NCBI GenBank assembly: GCA_017857195.1
Contig: JAFMDM010000007.1
Span: 1-32,482, forward strand
Origin: Methanobacteriota archaeon
GTDB lineage: Archaea > Thermoproteota > Thermoprotei_A > Sulfolobales > Sulfolobaceae
DNA: 32,482 nucleotides
Reading direction: 5' to 3'
Made by a program: the position numbers and the translations under genes. The notes beneath the pieces are model-generated. The model did no database searches. It saw only the letters and a list, made by a program, of their open reading frames with translations, and had not been told where the DNA came from. Of this stretch, positions 6,681 through 7,816 are shown one piece after another (the stretch's first letter is position 1; each line of letters opens with the position of its first letter).

Positions 6681-6691
6681 GTTTTATATAT
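6681..6691 (+). promoter_or_regulatory. Putative TATA box of the aRF1 gene
   Basis: gttttatatat lies about 30-38 bp upstream of ATG 6721, which predicts a leaderless or nearly leaderless transcript starting close to that ATG. Confidence 0.55.
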
Positions 6692-6720
6692 GATATGAGA
6701 GATTATTATCTCGATCAGGG

Positions 6721-7816
6721 ATGAGTCTTTGAGAAGTATACTATAAGTAAGGAGGAGCTCAAGGCCCTGTTAAGGGACCTGAAGAAGTGGAAGGCACCTG
6801 CTACTGTATTGCTTTCCCTATATATTCCTCCAGGGAGGCCAATAGCAGACGTTACAAACACCCTAAGGCAGGAGCTTTCCATCTCTCAAAACATAAAGCT
6901 AAAGAGAACCAGAGAAGCAGTGGAAATGGCCATATCCACGGCCATAGACAGATTAAGCAAGATATCAAAGGTACCTGATAATGGGCTAGTTATATTTAGC
7001 GGTAAGAACTTCGACACAGAGGAGTTCAAATGTATAGTCTTTTCTCCCCCTGAGAAAACCAGTGTGTACTTCTACAGGACAGATAAGGAATTCCACACTG
7101 AATTCCTGGAGGATCTAATAGAGGAAAACGACGTCTACGGCTTACTGATCATAGAGAGAGATGAAGCCACCATAGGTATGTTAAGGGGAAGCAGACTAGA
7201 AGTCCTGGAAGAGCTACAGGGTTACATACCAGGGAAGCATACTAAGGGAGGGCAGAGTCAGAGACGTGAGGCTAGAATCATAGAGGAGCTCGTTCACGAA
7301 TTCCATAAGGAGGTAGGAGAGAGGGCCAACAGCTATTTCCTACCATATCTTGAGAACAAGAAACTGAAGGGGATATTGGTAGGTGGTCCTGGATTTGCCA
7401 AGCAGGACTTCGTGGAGGGTGATTATATAGATTATAGACTAAAGAAGATGATAATAGAACCCCTTCTGGACATCAGTTACCAGGGTGAAAACGGACTGAG
7501 GGAGATGGTTATGAGGTCTGGTGACGCTCTAAAGGGACAGAAATTGGTTGAGGTGGAGAAAGCCTTAGAGGAGATAAAGTATCATCTGGCCAAATCTGAC
7601 GATCTAGTGGTGTATGGACGCAAGGAGATAGAGGCAGCGCTCGATTCAGGGGCTGTGGAGTTCCTTATAATTTACGATGATGACGCAAATCGGGATTTAA
7701 TCCAGAAGGCAGAGAGTTCCAAGGCAAATCTTTACGTGGTGGGCAGTGAACTTCCAGAGGCTGAGTGGATAAGAAAGACATTCAGTGGAGCCATAGGGAA
7801 GTTAAGATATAAGTGA
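6721..7816 (+). CDS. prf1: Peptide chain release factor subunit 1 (aRF1/eRF1 family); conserved N-terminus requires a +1 frameshift at CTT-TGA (6727..6732)
   Basis: [12 protein letters not shown] (GGQ motif), NIKLKRTR (NIKS-equivalent), [10 protein letters not shown]. The ATG frame reads ATG AGT CTT TGA. The main frame from 6725 reads [39 protein letters not shown] with no ATG/GTG/TTG until TTG 6809. Confidence 0.93.

Follow-up and report, generated by a model that had tools for sequence, protein, structure and literature searches.

The aRF1 gene of the window, the whole 32,482-nucleotide stretch of DNA analysed here, begins out of frame, and its product is very probably made through programmed +1 ribosomal frameshifting at codon 3, at a stop codon read by aRF1 itself, which would place the gene under negative autoregulation. 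The first-pass annotation had proposed this reading, and our analysis supports it. The ribosome would start at AUG 6721 and arrive with CUU in the P site and UGA in the A site. When aRF1 is plentiful, termination at UGA would release only Met-Ser-Leu. When it is scarce, the ribosome would pause, tRNA-Leu(GAG) would slip from CUU to UUU, and aRF1 would be translated. Since aRF1 decodes all three stop codons, UGA, UAG or UAA could each be used as the sensor. We infer the slipping, the re-pairing of the P-site tRNA and the setting of its rate by the aRF1 level from the bacterial prfB and Mimivirus precedents. With such a device, cells of these heat-loving archaea could probably gauge how much aRF1 they have and correct the supply.

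An out-of-frame start in the window

The 0 frame reads ATG 6721, AGT, CTT 6727-6729 and TGA 6730-6732, as the first-pass annotation had it, with aRF1 in the +1 frame (Table 1). That frame runs from GAG 6731 to a stop at 7814-7816 with 0 internal stops. Its translation carries the GGQ motif and reaches 406.5 bits against TIGR03676, the aRF1/eRF1 class-I release factor profile, whose cut-off is 234.7. The window's genome has one aRF1; a second, weaker profile match is a paralogue. A second, normally started copy was ruled out, as none appeared in the genome search. An in-frame start further upstream is blocked by TGA 6722 and by its equivalents in relatives, and the next ATG, GTG or TTG in the aRF1 frame is TTG 6809; inspection of the frame bore out both of these earlier claims. 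The gene thus has the layout of a prfB-like, release-factor-sensing device, without an in-frame start and with its ORF split at a stop read by the encoded factor.

The TATA-like sequence previously noted near 6681-6691 is present, and the family profile is T/A-rich at the same distance, from -45 to -42. Conservation within the family starts at -17 relative to the stop (31 genomes), consistent with transcription beginning about 27 bases 3' of the TATA-like box.

Table 1 Features of the aRF1 locus, in window coordinates.
Feature	Position	Strand	Basis
TATA-box-like element TTTTATATA	6682..6690	+	Sequence; about 27 bases 5' of the conserved leader
Conserved short leader GATCAGGG	6713..6720	+	5' end is the predicted transcription start
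Mini-ORF ATG AGT CTT TGA (Met-Ser-Leu-stop), 0 frame	6721..6732	+	Sequence; 31-genome conservation
In-frame TGA closing the aRF1 frame upstream	6722..6724	+	Sequence, relatives
Slip site CTT_T, P-site CUU re-pairing on UUU (+1) (putative)	6727..6730	+	TTT in 88/88; tRNA-Leu(GAG) in a same-genus genome
0-frame stop TGA, proposed sensor read by aRF1 itself	6730..6732	+	Stop in 88/88 slip genes
Main aRF1 frame, 361 residues plus stop, entered via +1 shift (putative)	6731..7816	+	Profile score, translation, alignment

Constraint on the proposed slip site and its stop

We sampled 31 genomes of the window's family (f1), including the window's own, from 11 genera and mostly as one-contig assemblies. 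ATG AGT CTT is invariant in all of them, the next codon is TGA in 29 and TAG in 2, and the protein follows in the +1 frame. The same out-of-frame start stands in the public records of Metallosphaera javensis, M. yellowstonensis, Ca. Aramenus sulfurataquae and Sulfolobus sp. UBA167. An 11-base slip block, GATGAGTCTTT, is invariant across the 31 genomes. Elsewhere in the gene, the longest run without variation is 3 bases, and of the 115 codon columns that always encode one residue, 0 have a constant third base. Strong nucleotide-level constraint thus acts on the slip site and 0-frame stop, as expected of a release-factor-sensing +1 frameshift. Third-base variation and the codon-type periodicity of the aRF1 frame start directly 3' of the slip in the f1 profile, so this stretch is translated in the aRF1 frame. 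This coding-type evolution agrees with the earlier remark that the post-slip stretch looks like a normal aRF1 N-terminus.

Beyond this family, we classified 150 aRF1 genes from 16 GTDB families. Equivalent sites, with a start, a short ORF, NUU and a stop, followed by the +1 frame, occur in 88 genes from 36 genera and 8 families. All sampled members of f1 (31), f3 (12), f4 (4) and f10 (25) have them, as do most of f2 and f5 and one member each of f11 and f13. The start usually lies one or two codons from NTT and, overall, 3 to 6 codons before the stop (five or six in two f5 loci). In f1, f4, f10, f11 and most of f3, the -9 codon is ATG, rarely GTG, and nothing else. NTT directly precedes the stop in the 88 genes, and two exceptions carry TAT. 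The 88-gene set was chosen by NTT plus stop, but zero genes were left out in f1, f3, f4 and f10, so the figures that follow are not a selection artefact.

Among the 88 genes, the slip codon is CTT in 39, ATT in 30, TTT in 17 and GTT in 2, and the 0-frame codon that follows is always a stop (TAG 57, TGA 30, TAA 1). The CUU-UGA site named by the first-pass annotation is accordingly correct for the window but too narrow as a general rule, which is NUU followed by UGA, UAG or UAA in many families. TTT stands at the slip in 88 of 88 genes; outside the slip site, TTT makes up 36% of their Phe codons. The post-shift residue varies between Ser, Asp, Glu and Asn; where it is Ser, it is always encoded by AGY and never by TCN (26 genera), against 54% AGY for Ser elsewhere (chance about 10^-7). 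The varying residue and the restriction of Ser to AGY indicate that it is the stop codon, not the residue, that is kept. As a control for chance, we used 832 kb made up of the window and 2 x 400 kb from two complete-level genomes. Exactly three of its 698 ORFs of at least 150 codons have the arrangement, and all three are aRF1 genes, so it is not a chance feature.

In-frame starts are used in f6, f7, f8, f9, f12, f14-f16, the f11 genus g29 and the f2 genus g22, and the lack of the device in several families of the order counts against the frameshift reading. Some loci are atypical. L105, L110 and L111 have an ATT_TAG site, and their slip frame has no ATG, GTG or TTG at a distance of three or four codons before it; their -9 codons are ATA, ATC and ATT, and in L111 a TTG stands five codons before the site. 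These three may use near-cognate starts or begin translation in some other way. L096, L104 and L130, of the f2 genus g22, retain ATTTAGY, but their GTG is now in-frame and the slip frame cannot reach the site; the retained motif is either a relic of recent loss or a sign of some further role of the site. L059 and L062 (f2 genus g32) carry TAT_TAG at the slip position, which would re-pair poorly, and still have a start codon 9 and 12 bases ahead of it. What looked like an internal TAG in the aRF1 of f21 proved to be the terminal stop region. One Pyrodictiaceae-type draft (G094) has two aRF1 matches above the cut-off (C16 and C120), possibly from mixed strains in the draft.

Parts for the proposed slipping and rival readings

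The tRNAs tRNA-Leu(GAG), tRNA-Ile(GAU) and tRNA-Val(GAC) were found in a complete genome of the same genus, so NUU can re-pair on UUU with the pairs at positions 2 and 3 kept. The 16S 3' tail, GATCACCTC(A/C), was taken from relatives, as a search of the window's own draft found no 16S rRNA. In f2-f5, f10, f11 and f13, Shine-Dalgarno (SD)-like pairing is strongest 4-6 nt ahead of the slip codon, and the element abuts the AUG or contains the GUG; families with in-frame starts have the maximum 6-8 nt ahead of the start codon. The window's family shows weak pairing, and a prfB-type stimulator would sit about 3 nt before the slip codon. In several families, the spacing is one at which the slip codon could equally serve as the point of initiation. 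No stimulatory or downstream RNA structure was found in the window (fold z-score -0.15). Positions 6715-6732 are predicted to form a 7-bp stem that pairs leader UCAGGGA with slip/stop UCUUUGA and leaves UGAG in the loop. As a stimulator, this stem was rejected by inspection, since its pairing is disrupted in L024 and other families do not conserve it.

The first-pass annotation had cautioned that CTTT might be a one-base error for CTT. The window does come from a 193-contig draft genome, but the same sequence is found in all relatives, most of which are single-contig genomes, and the identical out-of-frame start in 30/30 other f1 genomes makes a sequencing or assembly error vanishingly improbable. 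The out-of-frame site recurs in the alignment of relatives, none of which reads CTTGAG, and the window's strain is no outlier. It is very unlikely that a shortened aRF1 is made from TTG 6809 or an equivalent downstream start, even though TTG 6809 is the first canonical start in frame. Such a protein would lose 26 post-slip residues, rather than the roughly 28 first estimated, including the first helix and the columns L, W, A, A and T that are invariant in the alignment of 30 aRF1 proteins; the lost residues exist in 3AGK, a solved Aeropyrum-type archaeal aRF1. The codons upstream of TTG 6809 also evolve as coding sequence, and many relatives have no in-frame start there.

The main rival dispenses with frameshifting altogether. 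The SD-like element would direct initiation at the in-frame, non-canonical UUU immediately preceding the conserved Ser/Asp, and the AUG/GUG mini-ORF would be incidental or a separate inhibitory uORF. This would account for the SD-like peak in f2-f5 and f10, whose distance of 4-6 nt from NUU (5-7 from UUU) comes close to the 6-8 nt of true starts in in-frame families, for L105 and L110, which have no canonical start in the slip frame, and for the f2 genus g22, which keeps TTTAGY without a readable slip frame. However, it leaves unexplained the constant ATG/GTG at -9 in most families, the 0-frame stop that is always kept and the missing TCN Ser codons, and SD-like pairing is weak in the window's own family although AUG AGU CUU is invariant there. 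The initiator tRNA pairs with UUU at the middle base only. We regard UUU initiation as distinctly unlikely. The remaining alternative, a constitutive frameshift of set ratio or another change of frame (transcriptional slippage or base-level RNA processing) with no feedback by aRF1, is unlikely as well. The same sequence would be expected without feedback, but a stop as the post-slip 0-frame codon in 88 of 88 genes would have little purpose if termination were not being sensed. Polymerase slippage usually needs a longer T run than the 3 in the window, which is too short by usual standards.

Known recoding systems and evolution of the trait

Bacterial prfB, encoding RF2, is autoregulated by a +1 shift at CTT_TGA_C with an SD-like element (PMC3711429). 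The aRF1 device resembles it in being a (putative) +1 shift in a release-factor gene at NUU before a stop read by the encoded factor, often with an SD-like element, a possible stimulator, just upstream, and the window's family even shares CTT_TGA. Unlike RF2, the product is an aRF1/eRF1-type protein, unrelated to and outside the bacterial RF2 family. It reads three stops, so UAG and UAA also serve, and the slip codon can also be AUU, UUU or GUU. The site is at codon 3-4 (5-6 in two loci) rather than about codon 25, much earlier than in prfB as first remarked, and the SD-like element, which is weak in Sulfolobaceae, lies 4-6 nt away from the slip codon.

The eRF1-type genes R726 of Mimivirus and mg280 of Megavirus use +1 shifts at CUU UAG C and CUU UAA C, respectively, and the authors of that work treat archaea as lacking the device (PMC3521657). 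These genes belong to the same eRF1/aRF1 family, and the viral motif resembles the CTT_TAG_C of Desulfurococcaceae-type members. They differ in being viral, in having a second recoding event (UGA readthrough) and in having the site deep in the gene; a second in-frame stop of this type is absent from the window, where the aRF1 frame 6731-7816 is uninterrupted. The convergence with prfB proposed by the first-pass annotation, between unrelated protein families, is not unique to archaea, given the Mimivirus eRF1-type precedent (PMC3521657).

A 2021 review of archaeal recoding gives fucA1 of Saccharolobus solfataricus as the sole reported archaeal -1 frameshift and also covers archaeal-virus cases and a suggested magnesium chelatase case, with none in a release factor (PMC8211752). 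Like the putative aRF1 shift, fucA1 is a case of programmed frameshifting in an archaeal cell, and from the same organism family, but it is a -1 shift at an A-rich slippery heptamer, sporadic, and does not involve release-factor sensing. The open literature that we searched holds no description of an archaeal aRF1 frameshift, in agreement with the first-pass annotation, though one may still be described elsewhere. By its own account, the GeneTack survey misses shifts lying within 50 nt of the start (PMC3711429), which would explain how the aRF1 site was overlooked. If the frameshift reading is true, then, as far as the open literature searched goes, no earlier description exists for archaea of a cellular frameshift that is both conserved and regulatory. 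This one would act on a single-copy gene for a translation factor and would match the classic bacterial RF2 switch by convergence, the two proteins being unrelated. It would open to direct test how archaeal ribosomes shift frame, whether archaea sense their termination capacity and why one gene function keeps regaining such control. It would also mean that the annotated starts of aRF1 are probably wrong in many crenarchaeal genomes.

A quick aRF1 tree, from which the N-terminus was left out and in which some branches are weak, requires about 7 changes of the trait. A deep split divides the order in this tree, and bearers of the trait fall on either side of it. An early origin followed by several losses fits this tree, with several gains as the alternative. 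We give roughly even weight, for and against, to a broader scenario in which stop-sensing frameshifting of aRF1 arose early in the Sulfolobales-Desulfurococcales. In that scenario, any of the three stops at codon 3-4 would report on total termination capacity while the ribosome carries a tri- or tetrapeptide. The Caldivirga/Vulcanisaeta family would have arrived anew at such a device with the opposite direction (-1 at GAA UAA), and release-factor genes would thus have evolved sensors of this kind several separate times.

The second device is found in family f34, which we take to be these Caldivirga/Vulcanisaeta relatives. All 19 of its 19 intact aRF1 loci (4 genera; L282-L300, e.g. L288, L293 and L286) share the invariant TGGAATAA, which ends a 0-frame ORF of 2-6 codons (GTG/ATG ... 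GAA TAA) whose start lies 6, 15 or 18 bases ahead of its TAA. To enter the aRF1 frame, which goes on as GGA ATA, the ribosome would have to shift by -1 (or +2), and most of the loci have no in-frame start near the N-terminus. This arrangement suggests an independent -1 recoding of aRF1 at GAA UAA, in which the tRNA-Glu bound at GAA could move to GGA and form a G-U pair at the middle position.
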